From positions 1 through 64,000 of the forward strand of contig NZ_BONX01000023.1 of assembly GCF_016862935.1 (NCBI RefSeq): 64,000 bases of DNA. Direction: 5' to 3'. Below, one piece after another: positions 45,347-53,495 of the stretch; positions within the stretch are counted from its first letter, which is position 1; every line of letters begins with the position of its first letter. The notes beneath the pieces were generated by a model that was not told the DNA's origin, ran no database searches, and was given only the letters and a program-made list of their open reading frames with translations. The DNA comes from Plantactinospora mayteni. GTDB lineage: Bacteria > Actinomycetota > Actinomycetes > Mycobacteriales > Micromonosporaceae. Position numbers and translations under genes: made by a program.

Positions 45347-45676
45347 CCGCGATGGCCGACCGACGGACCGCCCTGTCGGGCCCGCACTGCTTCGCGTTCT
45401 GACCGCACCACCCTGACAGCACCACCCTGACCGCACCACCCGCCAGCACTGCCCCGCCAGCACCAGTCCGCCAGCACTGCCTCGCCAGCACCGACCGTCC
45501 GTGCTGTCGGCCCAGGTCAGGCCCGGTCGACCCGGGCTGGCCGCTCCACTCTGGACTAGCCCATCCGGCCAGCGATCATCCCAATCTATGGACGTCTATG
45601 TTGCCGCCTCTCCGGCGATGTGTTTCGGTCGATGGGCAGGAGTGCCGGTATGACCGGTATCCAGGGGAGGCACACC
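45347..45676. other. 330-bp intergenic region before the subtilase
   Basis: It begins after the LysR stop. A seven-copy 14-bp array occupies 45401-45498. The rest (45499-45676) should hold the subtilase promoter; the AT-richer stretch around 45575-45605 with an imperfect palindrome around gacgtc is the best candidate but no -35/-10 pair is convincing. Confidence 0.6.
45401..45498. repeat. 14-bp tandem array, seven copies
   Basis: Exactly seven 14-bp units run from 45401 to 45498. The first three are gaccgcaccaccct-like, and the last four are ccagcactgccccg-like. The array starts 55 bp after the LysR stop codon. Confidence 0.9.
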
Positions 45677-48600
45677 ATGAATCCAGTTAAAAGGCTTACG
45701 TGGGGAGTAACGGGTCTCGCCCTGCTGCTCGCGTTCGCCGTACCGGGACCGCCGGCAGGCACGGCCGCCATGGCGGGACCGCCGGGCCTCGCCGGACCTG
45801 CGGTACCGGCCGAATCGTCGGCCCCGCCCGGTGCGCCCGGATCCGATCCGCCGGCGGGCGGCGGTGCCCGGACGGTCAGCCTGGTCACCGGTGACCGGGT
45901 CACCGTCGGCACCGACTTCAAGGCCAGCGTCGAGCCGGGACCCGGCCGGACCGGCATCGAGTTCCTGACCCGTCGGGTCGCCGACCGGCTGCACGTGATT
46001 CCAACCGACGCCCTCGCACTGGTCCGCAGCGGGCGGCTGGACGAACGGCTCTTCGACGTCACCGCCCTGCTGGAGTTCGGCTACGACCGGCGGGCAGAGC
46101 TGCCGCTGCTGGTGACGTACGCCGGTGCCGACGCCCGGGTGGGAGGAGAGCGCGCGGCCGTCGGGGCCGGCGCGCGACTGGTCCGGGACCTGCCCCCGGT
46201 CGCCGGGCAGGCCGTCGCGGTGGACCGGGCCGGGCTGCCCCGGTTCTGGACCGGGCTGACCGGGACGGAGCCGACCCGGCGCAGCATGGCCGCGACCGTC
46301 CGCACCGTCTGGCTCGACGGGCTGCGCCGGCCCGCCCTGGCCGAGAGCGTGCCGCAGGTCGGTGCGCCGGCCGCCTGGGCCGCCGGCTTCGACGGCAGCG
46401 GGGTGACCGTCGCGGTGCTGGACACCGGGATCGACGAGACCCACCCCGACCTCGCCGGACAGGTGACCGGCCAGCGCAACTTCACCGACGGCGTCGAGGA
46501 CGACCGGGACACCGCCGGACACGGCACGCACGTCGCCTCCACAGTGGCCGGTACCGGTGCGGCCCGGTTCAAGGGTGTCGCCCCCGGAACCCGGCTGCTC
46601 GACGGCAAGGTCTGCGCGGCCGGCGGCTGCGCCGAGTCGGCGATCATCGCCGGCATGCAGTGGGCGGCCGAGTCCGGCGCCCGGGTGGTCAACATGAGCC
46701 TGACCGGCGTGGACAGCCCGGTGGTGGACCCGATCGAGCAGGCGCTCGGCGAGTTGACCGACGCGCACGACACGCTCTTCGTGGTCGCCGCCGGCAACAT
46801 TCCGGGTACCGGTACCGTCGGCTCGCCGGCCACCGCCGACGCGGCGCTGGCGGTCGGCGCGGTCAGCAAGTCCGACGGGCTCGCCGGCTTCTCCAGCCAG
46901 GGCCCCCGGCTGGGTGACGGCGCCATCAAGCCCGACCTGACCGCGCCCGGCCTGGACATCGTCGCCGCCCGGAGCATCGACTCCGGGCCGGACGTGCCGG
47001 CGGGAAGCGGGATCAGCATGTCCGGCACCTCGATGGCCACCCCGCACGTCGCCGGGGCCGCCGCGATCCTGGCCCAGCGCCAGCCGGACCTGCCGGCGGC
47101 CACCCTGAAGGCCGCGCTGATGGCCACCGCCCGGCCCCACCCCGACCTCAGCGTCTTCGCCCAGGGCGCCGGCCGGCTGGACGTCGCCCGGGCGCTCGAC
47201 CAGCGGGTCACCGCCGACCCGCCGAGCCTGAGCTTCGGCCGCCAGTCCTGGCCGCACGACGACGACACCCCGGTCCGGCGTACGGTCAGCTACCACAACG
47301 CGGGCGGCGCGGCGGTGACGCTGCACCTCGGGGTACGGGCCGTCGCGCCGGACGGCACCGCCGTGCCGACCGGGATGTTCGCGGTAACGCCGACCAGCGT
47401 CACCGTGCCGGCCGGCGGCACCGCCGAGGCGACCGTCACCGCCGACACGGCCGGCAGCGGTGGCCCGCTGGGGCAGCTCACCGGGCATCTCACCGCGACG
47501 GTCGCCGGTGGCGGCAGTGTGCCCACCCCGCTGGCGGTCGACCGTGAGGTGGAGAGCTACGACGTCAAGGTGTCGCACCTCGGCCAGGCCGGCGAGCCGA
47601 CCACCGGCTACCTGACGATGCTGGCCGGGTTGGACAACGCACACTCGATCTCGATGCCGGTCACCGACGACGGCACGGCCACCCTCCGGGTGCCGAAGGG
47701 GCGCTACTCGGCACTCACCGCGATCACCAGCCCGCTGGACGGCACCTATCTGACCAGCGTGCTCGCCCAACCCGAACTCGACGTCAGCGGCGACCGGAGC
47801 GTGGTCCTCGACGCCCGGCTCGGTCGACCGCTCTCGGTGACCGTGCCGAACAGCGGCGCCCGACAGGTCTTCGCCGAACTGGCCACCAGCGTGCTGGCCG
47901 CCGGCCGTACCGTCGAGGTCGGCACCCTCGGCGGCACCTTCGAGCGGCTGCGTACCGGTCGGGTCGGCCCGGACCAGGCGACCGCCGGGTTCGTCTCCCG
48001 GACCACCGCCACCTTCGCCCCGGCCGACCCGGCGGACCAGTCATACGCGTACCTGCTGTGCTGGCTCGGCGAGGGGCGGATGGGCAGCGGCTTCAGCCGA
48101 CAGGTGACCGCCGCCGACCTGGCGACGGTCCGGGCCGACCACGGTCACGAGTCCTCCGGCAGCAGCGGCCGGAAACTCGCCTGGGCGGTACTGCCGGAGT
48201 CGGTGATGGGCGGGTTCGCGCACGCGATGACGTTCCCGCTGCCGTCGACCCGGACCGAGTACTACAACACCGACGGCCGGGCGCAGTGGTTCCGTTCGGT
48301 CGACGAGACGACCGGCTCCGGGGACGAGCAGGCGTACCTGACCAGCCTGGTGGCGCCACCGATGACGTACCGGCCCGGGCAGTCGTACCAGGAGCAGTGG
48401 AGTCGCGGGGTCTTCGGGCCGACGGTGGCGGCACCCCCGTACGAGCACCAGTGGGTGACCCGGCTCGGCGACACCCTCACCGTCCAGGCCCCGCTGTACG
48501 GCGACGGCGTCGGCCGGGCCGGCTTCTCGTCGATCGCCACCGGCCGGATCACCCTGGAGCGCGACGGCAAGGTACTGGCCGAACTCGACGGTGTGAACGG

Positions 48601-49051
48601 GACGACCGAACTGCCGCCCGAGGCCGGCGACTACCGGCTGACCATGACGGCGGAACGGGGCGGGCCGGCGACGCTCTCCACCCGGGTCGGCGTGACCTGG
48701 ACCTTCCGCTCCGAGCACGTCGACGGGGAGACGCCGGCCCGGCTGCCGATCTCCACGGTGCGCTTCTCGCCCCGGGTGGACAACGACAACAGCACCCCGG
48801 CCGGGCAGACCGGCACCGTCCCGGTGACCGTCACGGCCCAGCCGGAGTCGGGAGCCGGCGCCAACGAGAACCTGGTGGTGGAGGTGTCGTACGACGACGG
48901 GGTCAGTTGGGCTCCGGCGGAGGTGACGGCGGGGCAGGCGGTGCTGCGGCATCCGGCCGAGCCGGGGTACGTCTCGCTGCGGGCCAGCGCCACCGACACC
49001 GCCGGGAACACGGTGACCCAGACGGTGATCCGGGCGTACAAGATCGGTTAG
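45677..49051 (+). CDS. Secreted S8 family serine protease (subtilase)
   Basis: A 1124-residue exported protease. A signal peptide covers ~1-32 (MNPVKRLTWGVTGLALLLAF, cleavage near GTAA). A pro-region runs to ~225. The subtilase domain (~230-520) has D249 (VAVLDTGID), H282 (GHGTHVAS), N374 (VAAGN) and S452 (GTSMATPHVAG). The C-terminal ~600 residues are beta-rich modules of unknown role, ending in NENLVVEVSYDDGVSWAPA. ATG at 45677 has ggggagg seven bases upstream and gives a clean signal peptide; upstream in-frame ATGs do not. It is convergent with the CPBP protease gene. Confidence 0.93.
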   Translation: MNPVKRLTWGVTGLALLLAFAVPGPPAGTAAMAGPPGLAGPAVPAESSAPPGAPGSDPPAGGGARTVSLVTGDRVTVGTDFKASVEPGPGRTGIEFLTRRVADRLHVIPTDALALVRSGRLDERLFDVTALLEFGYDRRAELPLLVTYAGADARVGGERAAVGAGARLVRDLPPVAGQAVAVDRAGLPRFWTGLTGTEPTRRSMAATVRTVWLDGLRRPALAESVPQVGAPAAWAAGFDGSGVTVAVLDTGIDETHPDLAGQVTGQRNFTDGVEDDRDTAGHGTHVASTVAGTGAARFKGVAPGTRLLDGKVCAAGGCAESAIIAGMQWAAESGARVVNMSLTGVDSPVVDPIEQALGELTDAHDTLFVVAAGNIPGTGTVGSPATADAALAVGAVSKSDGLAGFSSQGPRLGDGAIKPDLTAPGLDIVAARSIDSGPDVPAGSGISMSGTSMATPHVAGAAAILAQRQPDLPAATLKAALMATARPHPDLSVFAQGAGRLDVARALDQRVTADPPSLSFGRQSWPHDDDTPVRRTVSYHNAGGAAVTLHLGVRAVAPDGTAVPTGMFAVTPTSVTVPAGGTAEATVTADTAGSGGPLGQLTGHLTATVAGGGSVPTPLAVDREVESYDVKVSHLGQAGEPTTGYLTMLAGLDNAHSISMPVTDDGTATLRVPKGRYSALTAITSPLDGTYLTSVLAQPELDVSGDRSVVLDARLGRPLSVTVPNSGARQVFAELATSVLAAGRTVEVGTLGGTFERLRTGRVGPDQATAGFVSRTTATFAPADPADQSYAYLLCWLGEGRMGSGFSRQVTAADLATVRADHGHESSGSSGRKLAWAVLPESVMGGFAHAMTFPLPSTRTEYYNTDGRAQWFRSVDETTGSGDEQAYLTSLVAPPMTYRPGQSYQEQWSRGVFGPTVAAPPYEHQWVTRLGDTLTVQAPLYGDGVGRAGFSSIATGRITLERDGKVLAELDGVNGTTELPPEAGDYRLTMTAERGGPATLSTRVGVTWTFRSEHVDGETPARLPISTVRFSPRVDNDNSTPAGQTGTVPVTVTAQPESGAGANENLVVEVSYDDGVSWAPAEVTAGQAVLRHPAEPGYVSLRASATDTAGNTVTQTVIRAYKIG

Positions 49052-49101: not shown

Positions 49102-50130
49102 CTAAGCCGTGCAGCACGGTAGCGGGGACATGACCGGCGTGACCGTGACCACCGCGAGGTAGGCGCCGAGGAGCCACAGCGGAATGGCGGCGATGTCGAT
49201 CACGGTGTCGGTCCTGACCGCATCGTCGCCGGAGCCGTTCTGGACGCGGCGGCGGCGGGCCAGCCACAGCACCGCACCTCCGTACAACGCCACCATGGAC
49301 ATGTCGACGACCGCGGTGAGCGCGTGCACGTCGGTCGCCGTCTGCTGTGCCTCCAGCGTGCCCGTGATGACCGCCAGCCCGATCGCGGCCACGTTGTTGA
49401 CCACATGTAGCGCGATCGCGGCCTCCAGCCCGCCGGTCCGGATCGTCACCACCGCCGTCACCACGCCGAGGAAGATCAGGCTGGTCATGCCCCAGATGGT
49501 GCCGTAGCCGTGTGCCAGTCCGAACAACACCGCCGACACCACGATCCCTGGCCAGGGCGACCGGATCCAGGACCCGAACGCCTGGATCAGCCATCCACGG
49601 AACAGATACTCCTCGCCGGCCGCCTGTAGCGGCACCAGCAGCACCACCACGGCCAGGCCGAGCGCGAGTCGCTCCCAGCCCACCGAGTTGCTCTCCGGGC
49701 TGTCGCCGGGCAGGAGGCTCAACACCCCGAGATTCAGCCCCAGCGCCGGTACGGCGAGCAGGAGGCACATCGCCAGCCAGCGCCAGCGCAACCGGCCTGC
49801 CACCGATGACACCGTGCCGGCTGGGCGACGCTGTACCCACCAGGCGGCGATCAATGTCAGCGGAATCAGCAGGCCGAGCGAGACCATGGCGACCGCCAGT
49901 TCGGCTTCTGGGCCGCCGGCCAGAAAGTCCTCCGGTCCGTCCAGGATCGACACGACCGCGCTTGCCGCCCCGAACCCGCCCACCAGCATCACCGGCAGCC
50001 CAGCCAAGATCAGCAAGGTGCCGAGAATGGGCCGCCACCAGCGGTGCCGGTCGGTGCGGGCGAGCCGGTGATAGGGAATCGGTGCGACAGTCGGGGTGGG
50101 GGTCTGCGCGTCGGGAAGCGTCGTCGTCAT
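49102..50130 (-). CDS. CPBP family intramembrane metalloprotease
   Basis: A 342-residue polytopic protein with about eight helices and a ~30-residue cytoplasmic proline/threonine-rich N-terminus. The Abi/CAAX-protease motifs are complete: EEYLFR (E173, E174, R178), FGLAH (F203, H207) and HVVNN (H242, N246). It should cleave within or near the membrane. ATG at 50130 begins MTTTLPDAQTPTPT, with GAGAGG upstream. It is divergent (167 bp) from the small membrane-anchored protein gene at 50298 that heads the unusual two-component cluster, so its substrate may be a protein of that cluster; this is inference from position only. Confidence 0.9.
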   Translation of the reverse strand: MTTTLPDAQTPTPTVAPIPYHRLARTDRHRWWRPILGTLLILAGLPVMLVGGFGAASAVVSILDGPEDFLAGGPEAELAVAMVSLGLLIPLTLIAAWWVQRRPAGTVSSVAGRLRWRWLAMCLLLAVPALGLNLGVLSLLPGDSPESNSVGWERLALGLAVVVLLVPLQAAGEEYLFRGWLIQAFGSWIRSPWPGIVVSAVLFGLAHGYGTIWGMTSLIFLGVVTAVVTIRTGGLEAAIALHVVNNVAAIGLAVITGTLEAQQTATDVHALTAVVDMSMVALYGGAVLWLARRRRVQNGSGDDAVRTDTVIDIAAIPLWLLGAYLAVVTVTPVMSPLPCCTA

Positions 50131-50297
50131 GCCGGACAGCCTCTCGTTACACACCGCACGGATCATCTGTCGTGAGCATGAACCTTGGCGCTGACTATCG
50201 TCGTACCGCGTGAACTCCACGATCCAACGGACCACTGACGACTCACCCGTCGATTACCGGGAAGCTGAACACCTCCCATCACGACGAAGGAAGTGTC

Positions 50298-50666
50298 ATG
50301 CGAAAAGTTGGAATCGTAGTCGCCGTACTGGTCGTCGTCCTGTGCGGTGGCCTCGGATGGGCGGGCTACCAGACGTTCGCCCTGGGTAAGGAGATACTCG
50401 GGGCCGGCGTAACCCGGGAACAGTTCGACGCGCAAAAGGAGGGTACGCCGGAGGCGGACGTGCGTGCCGCACTGCCCGAGCCGCTGAGCAGCATGAACGA
50501 CAAGGATCTCTACCGCGGCGATCCTGGCAGGCACGGCATGCCGGCCGATGCCTCGTGCATCTACTACACGATCAAGCCGATCGAGGACAGCGGTCCGGAT
50601 CTGTGGCGGTTCTGTTTCGTCAACGGTGCACTTGCGGAGAAGAGCGCCATCACGATTCCCGAGTGA
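50298..50666 (+). CDS. Small membrane-anchored protein, paralogue of the adjacent kinase C-terminus
   Basis: A 122-residue protein. A single N-terminal membrane helix (residues ~4-28) leads to an external domain with GTPEADVRAALP, a cysteine in ASCIYY and another in WRFCFVNGALAEKSAI. The GTPEADVRAALP pattern recalls the first motif of BamE/SmpA-like domains, which is a weak fold guess. The same helix-plus-domain is repeated at the C-terminus of the histidine kinase encoded 520 bp downstream (IGQPEDEVRALLP, ATCVDY, YRFCFRDGILIDKQEI). ATG at 50298 has gaaggaag upstream. It is followed by a strong hairpin, so it is probably its own transcript. Confidence 0.72.
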   Translation: MRKVGIVVAVLVVVLCGGLGWAGYQTFALGKEILGAGVTREQFDAQKEGTPEADVRAALPEPLSSMNDKDLYRGDPGRHGMPADASCIYYTIKPIEDSGPDLWRFCFVNGALAEKSAITIPE

Positions 50667-50701
50667 CACCGACGGCTCGTGGAAGTCGTCTCGCGCGATT
50701 C

Positions 50702-50734
50702 ATGCCGCCCGGGTGTTCGCTACCCGGGCGGCAT
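50702..50734 (+). terminator. Strong hairpin after the small anchored-protein gene
   Basis: Perfect 13-bp arms atgccgcccgggt and acccgggcggcat with a 7-base loop, 35 bp after the stop codon. It separates this gene from the downstream small protein and kinase genes. Confidence 0.8.
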
Positions 50735-50835
50735 CGCGTGCGGGTACGTGTCAACGAAAGTGTGACGGCATCCTCGGCGCGATTCCGTCGTCCGCCGGAC
50801 GCGCACCTGGCCCGGCCGCAACCACACTGTCGGGC

Positions 50836-51096
50836 ATGACAGTGATAACTGCCCTCGTCATCGGTGTGGTCGGAGGCGTGATGCTCATCGTCGCGCAGTA
50901 TCTGCGTCGCCGGGCGTTGAGGATGACAGATCGTGGCGTGGCGGGGCGGGTGGCGCTGCACGCGGAGGTGATGGACACCCTCGACAGGGATGGCTGGATA
51001 GCATCGGTCAAGATCTACCGGAAGCGGACCGGTGCTGGGCTGCTGGAGGCGCACGAAGCGGTCAGCCGAATCGCCCGCGATGGCACTGAAGAGTGA
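50836..51096 (+). CDS. Small membrane protein with L7/L12-like C-terminal motif
   Basis: An 86-residue protein. An N-terminal helix (ITALVIGVVGGVMLIVAQYL) is followed by basic residues and then WIASVKIYRKRTGAGLLEAH with EAVSRIA. This matches the helix-turn pattern of the ribosomal L7/L12 C-terminal domain (IxVIKxxRxxTGLGLKEAKxLVE). In L7/L12 that surface binds translation GTPases; here it would sit on the cytoplasmic face of the membrane. ATG at 50836 has only a weak ribosome site. It lies 91 bp before the kinase gene and is probably co-transcribed with it. Confidence 0.68.
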   Translation: MTVITALVIGVVGGVMLIVAQYLRRRALRMTDRGVAGRVALHAEVMDTLDRDGWIASVKIYRKRTGAGLLEAHEAVSRIARDGTEE

Positions 51097-51187
51097 GGAC
51101 TACTCCGATGATCACGGCCGGTCTCAGGCAGATTTCCCGCCTTGCCGCCGCTGCGGCAGTGCGGGACGGCGGTCGGCGGGTCCAGTG

Positions 51188-52783
51188 GTGACGGTCAGGT
51201 GGGCGGCCCGATGGCGTGACCAGGCCCGCCGGGCGGGGGCGTGGCGTCTGGTCCACGAGATCTGCCTGGTGGTGCTGGTGACCATCGTGGCGGTGGTCGC
51301 GGCGGCCGTCGCCGGCTGGTATCCGTGGGCGCCGTGGCTGGTCGGGCTCTCCACGCCGATCCTGATCGCGCTGCGGCTGACGTACCCGCTGGTGGCGTAC
51401 CTCACCGCGGCGCTGGTCGGCCTGGGCACCGGTGGGCAGAACAGTCTCCTGCTGGTGCTGTTGAGCGCGTCGCTCAGTTACCGCGTCGCCCGGTGGTGGC
51501 AGGTCACCGCCGCGCTGGCCGTGGCGTGGGCCTGCTACGTGGCGTCGATCGTCTGGGAAGAACCGCTGAGCGTGGAGATGGCCGTCGTGCTCTCGGCGAT
51601 GTTCGCGTTGCTGGCGGTGCTACCGGCCGGCGTGGCGAGGCTGGTTCGGCGGCGGCGGACGCTGCTGGCGGCAATGCACCAACGCAATGTGCAACTGCAC
51701 AGTCAGCAGGGTGAGGTTGCCCGGCAGGCACAGACGCGAGAGCGGGCCCGCATCGCGCGGGACCTGCATGATTCGCTGGGGCACAAGCTGACCCTGATCT
51801 CCCTGTACGCCGGGATGGTGCGTACTGCCGACGAGGATCGGCGGTCCGAGGCCGCCGACCTGGTGCGGCAGACGTCCTCGGCGGCGATGACCGAGCTGCG
51901 TCAGATCCTCGGCATTCTCGGTGAGGGTGACGGCCAGTCCTCGGTGCGGCCGCTGTCCGGCTTGGACGAACTGGCCGAGCAGGCGCGTGCCTCCGGCGCC
52001 CAGGTGGAGGTCGTCCGGGAGGGGGAGCCACGGCCGCTGGCGGCGCTGACCGAACACGCGGCGTACCGGGTGATTCAGGAGGGCCTGACCAACGCGCTGC
52101 GGCACGCCCACGGCGGCGCGGTCGTGCTGCTGCTGCGGTTCGAACCGGACGCGTTGGTCGCCGGCGTGACCAACACCGCCGGGCAACGCATCGTGCGGTC
52201 CACGTCCGGGCAGGGGCTGCTGGGGTTGACCGAACGCGTCCGGATCGCCAACGGCGTGCTCTACCACGGCCCGACACCCGACGGAGGCTTCCGGCTGGCC
52301 GCAACACTGCCCTGTTCGGGCGACGAACACGCCACGTCCACCGCCGAGCATCGCCCACCGGAGCATCGCCCACCGCCGGCCACCGAGGCCCAGGCTGACT
52401 TCGCGGCCCTGATGGACCGTGACCGCCGCCGCTCCCGGCTCGTCCTCGCGGCCACCACGCTGTCCATCGCCGGCTTCCTGGCGCTGTGCCTGGCCGGGGT
52501 CTGGCTGATGATGGCCTTCGTCGTGGTGGACCGGAACACCTACGACGCCATCCACATCGGCCAGCCGGAAGACGAGGTACGCGCCCTGCTGCCCGACGCC
52601 GACGCCGCGGTCACCGGTGTCACCGGCGGCCGACCGGTGCCCGACGCCACCTGCGTCGACTACCCGGCGTCGATCCTGGACCAGGTGGGGCCCGACCCCG
52701 GTGCCGGCCGCGACATCTACCGGTTCTGCTTCCGCGACGGCATCCTGATCGACAAACAGGAAATTCACGAGCGGCGGCCATGA
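51188..52783 (+). CDS. Sensor histidine kinase with C-terminal transmembrane extracytoplasmic domain
   Basis: A 531-residue protein. About five N-terminal helices (~20-150) are followed by a HisKA_3 phosphoacceptor (RIARDLHDSLGHKL, H194) and an HATPase with VIQEGLTNALRHAHGG and GQGLLGLTERV. Unusually, the chain then crosses the membrane again (helix ~418-445) and ends in an ~80-residue external domain with two cysteines (ATCVDY, YRFCF), a close relative of the protein encoded at 50298-50666. The start is uncertain: GTG at 51188 (VTVRWAARWRDQARR) gives a sensible N-terminus, but the frame is open to 51032. It pairs with the response regulator 28 bp downstream. Confidence 0.88.
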   Translation: MTVRWAARWRDQARRAGAWRLVHEICLVVLVTIVAVVAAAVAGWYPWAPWLVGLSTPILIALRLTYPLVAYLTAALVGLGTGGQNSLLLVLLSASLSYRVARWWQVTAALAVAWACYVASIVWEEPLSVEMAVVLSAMFALLAVLPAGVARLVRRRRTLLAAMHQRNVQLHSQQGEVARQAQTRERARIARDLHDSLGHKLTLISLYAGMVRTADEDRRSEAADLVRQTSSAAMTELRQILGILGEGDGQSSVRPLSGLDELAEQARASGAQVEVVREGEPRPLAALTEHAAYRVIQEGLTNALRHAHGGAVVLLLRFEPDALVAGVTNTAGQRIVRSTSGQGLLGLTERVRIANGVLYHGPTPDGGFRLAATLPCSGDEHATSTAEHRPPEHRPPPATEAQADFAALMDRDRRRSRLVLAATTLSIAGFLALCLAGVWLMMAFVVVDRNTYDAIHIGQPEDEVRALLPDADAAVTGVTGGRPVPDATCVDYPASILDQVGPDPGAGRDIYRFCFRDGILIDKQEIHERRP

Positions 52784-52811
52784 CCCCACGACGCCAGCGA
52801 AGGACGACGCC

Positions 52812-53495
52812 ATGACCGATCCCCTGCGGGTCCTGCTGGCCGACGACGACTCCCTGATCCGTACCGCGATCAACGCGATCCTGCATCCGGAGGCCGACAT
52901 CGACCTGATCGCGCAGGCCGCCGACGGACGGGCCGCGGTCGACCTGGCCGTACGGCACCGGCCGGACGTCGCGTTGCTGGACATCCAGATGCCGGTCCTC
53001 GACGGCCTGGCGGCACTGCGGGAGATTCGTCGCCTTGTCCCTGCGGTCCAGACCGTGGTGCTGACCACCTTCGGCCAGGACGACTACGTCGCGCAGGCCC
53101 TCGCCGCCGGGGCGGCCGGTTTCCTGATCAAGGAATCGGCGGCCGACGAACTCGCCTACGCGATCCGCGCCGCCGCGGCGGGCAACGCCTACCTCTCGCC
53201 GAAGATCACCCGGCAGGTTCTCAACCGGCTGCCCACCGTGACCGTTCGACCCGAGGAGGACCTCGCCAAGGTCAGCATGCTCAGCGGCCGGGAACGCGAC
53301 GTCCTGATCCTGCTGGCCCAGGGACTCTCCAACGCCGAGATCGGTCAGCACCTGTTCGTCTCCGAAGGAACCGTCAAGACCCACGTGTACCGGGTGTTCG
53401 CCAAGCTCGGCTGTGAGAACCGGGTCCAGGCCGCCATGCTCGCCCAACGTGCCGGCCTGCTGGAGCCACCGAGCACCCCGACAACTGCCCGGTAA
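52812..53495 (+). CDS. NarL/FixJ-family response regulator
   Basis: A 227-residue protein. The receiver has acidic residues DDD at 11-13, phosphoacceptor D57 (VALLDIQMP), the TT of VVLTTFG and K107 (FLIKE). The C-terminal LuxR-type HTH reads LSGRERDVLILLAQGLSNAE and IGQHLFVSEGTVKTHVYRVF. ATG at 52812 has gaagga upstream and lies 28 bp after the kinase. It should be phosphorylated by that kinase. Direct targets are unknown; the neighbouring anchored-protein and CPBP promoter region is a natural candidate. Confidence 0.94.
   Translation: MTDPLRVLLADDDSLIRTAINAILHPEADIDLIAQAADGRAAVDLAVRHRPDVALLDIQMPVLDGLAALREIRRLVPAVQTVVLTTFGQDDYVAQALAAGAAGFLIKESAADELAYAIRAAAAGNAYLSPKITRQVLNRLPTVTVRPEEDLAKVSMLSGRERDVLILLAQGLSNAEIGQHLFVSEGTVKTHVYRVFAKLGCENRVQAAMLAQRAGLLEPPSTPTTAR

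Follow-up and report, generated by a model that had tools for sequence, protein, structure and literature searches.

In the first 64,000 nucleotides (nt) of contig NZ_BONX01000023.1 of Plantactinospora mayteni, the stretch that we analyzed and call the window, we found a two-component system whose histidine kinase ends in a C-terminal domain that probably faces outward, and which also encodes this domain as a small membrane-anchored protein, the free copy, behind a conserved promoter element. The architecture, the homology of the two domains, the fold of their models, their genomic coupling and the shared promoter element are established by computation. We lean towards reading the locus as an AbsA1-like two-component system in which the unfused copy of the sensor domain serves as a homeostatic feedback partner, induced through the system's own element.

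The free copy (50298..50666, + strand; 122 residues) has a hydrophobic helix at residues 4-22, the domain at 38-118 and cysteines at positions 16, 87 and 106. The original prediction, whose coordinates and reading frames were right, held that the kinase (51188..52783, + strand; 531 residues, with a provisional start because an in-frame GTG lies upstream at 51032) continues past its ATPase region into a membrane helix and an extra domain. This is borne out: the hydrophobic segment spans residues 416-450 (52433..52537, + strand; helix 3-35 of the model) with Cys434, and the domain covers residues ~447-526 (52526..52765, + strand) with Cys489 and Cys514. The three motifs quoted as common to the two proteins are present in both. 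A blastp alignment of the free copy with the kinase domain gave an E of 4e-11 and 34% over 87 columns, and the soluble parts scored 108, whereas 2000 shuffles averaged 26 and did not exceed 50. Profiles built apart from 12 free copies and 14 kinase domains matched each other with a probability of 99.3% and an E of 8e-21. The small protein had been said to match over its whole length, membrane helix included; the domain homology stands, while the pairwise match covers residues 38-118 only and the helices share a cysteine and little beyond it.

To place these domains among relatives, we used 80 named loci from Micromonosporaceae, Streptomyces, Kitasatospora, Lentzea and Allokutzneria, which were gathered by peptide patterns from kinase copies. 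The domain is fused behind the kinase in 79 of the 80, a figure biased against free copies because of the origin of the patterns, and a helix lies between kinase and domain in all 79. In the 34 residues that precede the domain, a cysteine is found in all 12 of the free copies compared and in 60 of 79 kinases, against ~17% expected from the N-terminal region. The soluble domain contains exactly two cysteines in all 79 kinases, and this conserved pair is compatible with a disulfide. The 12 free-copy proteins have 28 invariant columns and a conserved stretch of their own, around LPEPL..dkdLY..DpgR.GmP, that the aligned kinase copies lack. Altogether, the sequence comparisons support descent of the free and fused copies from a common ancestor.

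The free and fused copies are also coupled by co-occurrence, adjacency and the shared promoter element. Of the 18 named loci from Micromonosporaceae, 11 have the free copy next to the kinase, once in opposite orientation (L056); the 62 other named loci, some of them truncated close to the kinase, have none beside it. Among 200 genomes of the family, a single-query search found the domain in 59; the free copy is present in 19, all of which also carry a fused kinase, and 40 of the 59 kinase-bearing genomes have the fused kinase without a free copy. In 17 of the 19, the free-copy gene sits just 5' of the kinase gene and in the same orientation, at a distance of 1.2-1.8 kb from the fused domain, with kinase and domain confirmed in the loci. 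The free copy of G185 is 978 nt from a contig end, where linkage is undecidable, and in G195 the free copy and the fused kinase are unlinked, on different contigs. A further free copy, from Streptomyces sp. NRRL F-6131 (L087:5875-6252), is an orphan for which a kinase was not found in the 12 kb of sequence covered.

In a tree with 16 free-copy rows, including the duplicates L044 = L071 and L039 = L061, all 15 rows from Micromonosporaceae (13 of them distinct) group in a single clade at 100/96, and the fused copies from those loci fall outside it. The alignment had 91 columns and many forks are unresolved. The 16th row, the Streptomyces orphan, places elsewhere, and a single clade of all 16 was not rejected (approximately unbiased test, p-AU 0.089). 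This is not the pattern of a recent duplication at each locus.

The promoter element, a candidate operator at 50192..50253 (+ strand), consists of a left arm, ACTATCGTCG, followed by GATCC and CTGACGAC, and lies ~104 nt 5' of the free-copy ATG. Its conserved form, found 5' of free copies and mostly ~100-115 nt before the start, reads ACTTTCGTCGTAC..., with GATCC and CTGACGA after it. The P. mayteni genome has one strong site (E 1.1e-9; the next reaches 1.3e-3). A sequence model of the element returned 22 sites in 18 of the 200 family genomes. Seventeen of these precede free copies, so that the element stands before the free copy in 17 of 19 free-copy genomes, and two precede domain-bearing kinases (G195:C22 and G087:C1:950048, the latter with the kinase behind it confirmed). 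The remaining sites belong to an AraC-type gene behind the regulator (G199, the L071 site), a regulator-like gene (G199:C35) and one unexplained position (G189); the extra G199 element copies correspond to L221 and L224.

Seven named loci of Micromonosporaceae have no free copy beside the kinase. Outside the training set, sites precede the kinase in L054 (E 1.3e-6), L058 (1.7e-6) and L060 (4.8e-4), the last one inside the longest reading frame and 5' of the likely start; L051 (cut by a contig end), L052, L062 and L063 have no site at E 0.01. L054 is the kinase locus of G195, in which the unlinked free copy and kinase each carry a site, and this speaks for a regulated pairing rather than one that merely follows from gene order. 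In the 40 kinase genomes without a free copy, no element site was found at the kinase, and many of these kinases may belong to other paralogous groups.

The same left arm recurs before the kinase in Streptomyces, where it often forms an inverted repeat whose halves are 9-10 nt apart. Across the named loci it occurs upstream of 41 of 79 kinases, against ~2 expected (1.94, derived from the loci themselves); five loci (L051, L084, L091, L097 and L117) offer less than 600 nt upstream of the kinase frame. When both arms were scored, 38 of 66 upstream regions reached at least 16/20, with shuffle maxima averaging 14.3; the 66 exclude the 11 loci with a free copy and two kinases with short upstream sequence. 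In Micromonosporaceae the arms are ~21 nt apart and 7 of 12 free-copy promoters reach 15/20, a score equaled by at least 3 of 30 shuffles for L057, L071, L075 and the window, where the right arm is indistinct from shuffles. The Lentzea loci listed have the left arm only. The exact inverted repeat was found in 9 of 16 genomes, at 16 distinct sites (0-4 per genome), six of them at the kinase and several of the other ten inside reading frames; a reversed control pattern gave 0 sites, and the window genome has no exact repeat. The simplest reading of these patterns is that the element serves the regulator of this same system as an operator and that the regulon is narrow.

A C-terminal membrane helix followed by an external domain had been proposed to be rare and new among histidine kinases, and neither holds. 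Besides the named loci, profile searches found the domain in at least 54 genomes out of 394 from the class and at least 225 of 392 from Streptomyces, both lower bounds because only 11 candidates were scored per genome; the genus is recognized from the G620 match, which has the coordinates of L064 (S. buecherae). The layout itself is known, since AbsA1 has been reviewed with a C-terminal helix and an extracellular C-terminal part. By hydropathy, the window kinase has about four N-terminal segments (51260..51634, + strand) and one near the C-terminus. The C-terminal segment is present in all 79 named relatives, with four N-terminal segments in 40, five in 21, three in 14 and other counts in 4. 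Lysines and arginines are more numerous before the C-terminal helix than after it in 69 of 80 cases (11 deviate), and this positive charge, together with AbsA1 as reviewed, suggests that the C-terminal domain probably lies outside the membrane.

Pfam has no family matching either the free copy or the kinase C-terminal domain. Structure models of both have a helix-helix-three-strand order with an antiparallel sheet, the fold of the BLIP/BamE (SmpA_OmlA) superfamily. Each model was compared with the PDB separately, and the two are not independent because their input alignments overlap. At the sequence level, the superfamily profile gave no match, a single member of 33 reaches DUF3862 at E 0.069, and the only PDB profile match is 3d4e at E 0.48.

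The rest of the kinase is that of a HisKA_3 protein, one of 56 HisKA_3 matches in this 9.84 Mb genome. The HisKA_3 domain occupies residues 185-245 (51740..51922, + strand; PF07730 E 1.1e-15), and the phospho-acceptor, assigned by motif, is His194 (51767-51769, + strand). The ATPase region, delimited by eye at 52058..52312 (+ strand), retains the N box NALRH and the G2 box GQGLLGLTERV, lacks DxGxG and reaches PF02518 at E 0.073, under its cut-off; 77 of the 79 kinases of the family likewise have no DxGxG box. A NarL-type response regulator of 227 residues follows (52812..53495, + strand; Pfam Response_reg E 1.2e-25, GerE E 5.4e-20), and a response regulator is found within 600 nt downstream in 74 of 79 kinases of the named loci. 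AbsA2 is likewise of the NarL/LuxR type, and AbsA1, with 571 residues and a phosphorylated His202, would fit the sizes of the Streptomyces relatives. Two further kinases of the P. mayteni genome carry the domain (C15:26137-26469 and C47:44773-45084; L161 and L162) without a strong promoter element, and the C15 kinase has RLCA in place of RFCF.

Between the free copy and the kinase lies a gene for a small membrane protein of 86 residues (50836..51096, + strand) with a weak L7/L12-like stretch (NCBIfam L12 E 0.055, under its cut-off); its homologues have a comparable position in L049, L053, L057 and L059 and another in L052 and L062. On the other side of the element, a CPBP (Rce1-like) membrane protease is encoded at 49102..50130 (- strand; PF02517 E 1e-18, 67.8 bits against a gathering score of 22.4). 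In the window, as predicted, and in four named loci, it is divergent from the free copy, so that both genes share a promoter region. As a core partner of the free copy it did not hold up: with 4 of 11 named free-copy loci and 1 of 7 further ones, it is an optional neighbor. The CPBP homologue of Actinoplanes couchii (L055:3432-4426) is split over two reading frames. Beside the CPBP gene in the window, a large frame of 1143 residues (45620-49051) resembles, by eye, a secreted subtilisin-type protease. In L054 (1582-4789), the element separates the kinase from a divergently encoded PG_binding_1 protein, a lipoprotein by eye, and an FtsX/MacB permease gene comes next on the same strand. From the CPBP protease here, and the peptidoglycan-binding-domain protein and permease there, we infer that envelope or antimicrobial stress is the likely context of the system.

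In the mechanism that we propose, the outward domain would bind an envelope ligand or protein and thereby set the balance of kinase and phosphatase activity; binding is suggested by the known members of the fold, BLIP and BamE among them, which bind other proteins (PMC2954215). The phosphorylated NarL-type regulator would then bind the ACTTTCGTCG element before its own operon and switch the operon on. Since the element is followed first by the free-copy gene, an activated system would make more of the anchored free domain. This domain, which presumably faces the same side of the membrane as the fused one, may compete or pair with it and so reset the signal. It is plausible that the free and fused copies bind the same partner. 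An extended version, which we offer as a speculation and hold to be unlikely, is that a BLIP-fold domain, docked on a penicillin-binding or similar enzyme of the envelope, lets AbsA1-type kinases monitor cell-wall synthesis, and that in Micromonosporaceae the operator-driven free copy titrates this enzyme too, giving a homeostatic receptor-decoy loop for the envelope.

The same evidence can be read in other ways. The free copy could be an effector: the system would induce it as an anchored protein that inhibits an envelope enzyme in the manner of BLIP, and the kinase domain would gauge the enzyme left unoccupied. The fold, and the way in which BLIP-like proteins are proposed to bind, would suit this role, as would the place of the free copy directly after the element and the conserved stretch that the aligned kinase copies lack. 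Nevertheless, no target enzyme emerged from the analysis, and the fold match is moderate, made at the level of the fold and not of the BLIP contact residues; we regard an effector role as possible and rather unlikely. Adjacency and co-occurrence would also suit a co-receptor that the kinase requires, paired with the fused domain and positive in sign, much as SafA enhances PhoQ through its sensor domain (PMC8534201). Yet a required partner fits poorly with the 40 of 59 kinase genomes that do without a free copy, and with G195, where the two genes are unlinked, which makes a co-receptor quite unlikely in our estimation. Homology and adjacency alone would even fit a non-functional relic of a domain duplication. 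The free copies, however, form a clade apart from the fused copies of their own loci and keep their invariant columns, and the element and the position of the gene are conserved, so we consider a relic highly improbable. The feedback partner described above is the reading that we prefer.

These results suggest a fold for the C-terminal domains of AbsA1-type kinases, AbsA1 being a long-known switch of antibiotic production. The C-terminal-sensor layout is widespread, and a candidate operator marks the operon across genera. A lineage that makes the domain as a separate small protein provides a natural bait for the partner of the kinase, and thus a handle on what such sensors detect.

In a literature search by titles and abstract openings, no account of the free copy, of the element or of a BLIP/BamE-fold sensor was among the matches listed. 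The small envelope proteins of the BLIP/BamE superfamily resemble the models of both domains in fold and in helix-helix-three-strand order. SafA, a small single-pass protein that acts on the outer domain of the PhoQ kinase, offers an analogy to the proposed pair; unlike the free copy, it is not described as a copy of the sensor domain in the available text of that report (PMC8534201). The closest counterpart in layout is AbsA1/AbsA2 (SCO3225/26) of S. coelicolor, located within the CDA antibiotic cluster (PMC6457490). According to the review passages on AbsA1, the protein has five transmembrane domains, of which four are N-terminal and one is C-terminal, and its C-terminal part is extracellular and probably the sensor (PMC9739842, PMC3881020), for a signal called "hitherto unidentified" (PMC3881020). 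The two systems have in common the 4+1 membrane segments and the neighboring response regulator, a likeness of layout taken from reviews and not from sequence. Unlike AbsA1/AbsA2, the system of the window has the domain in unfused form as well and a CPBP gene nearby, and the twin copy with its shared element comes as an addition to a known layout.

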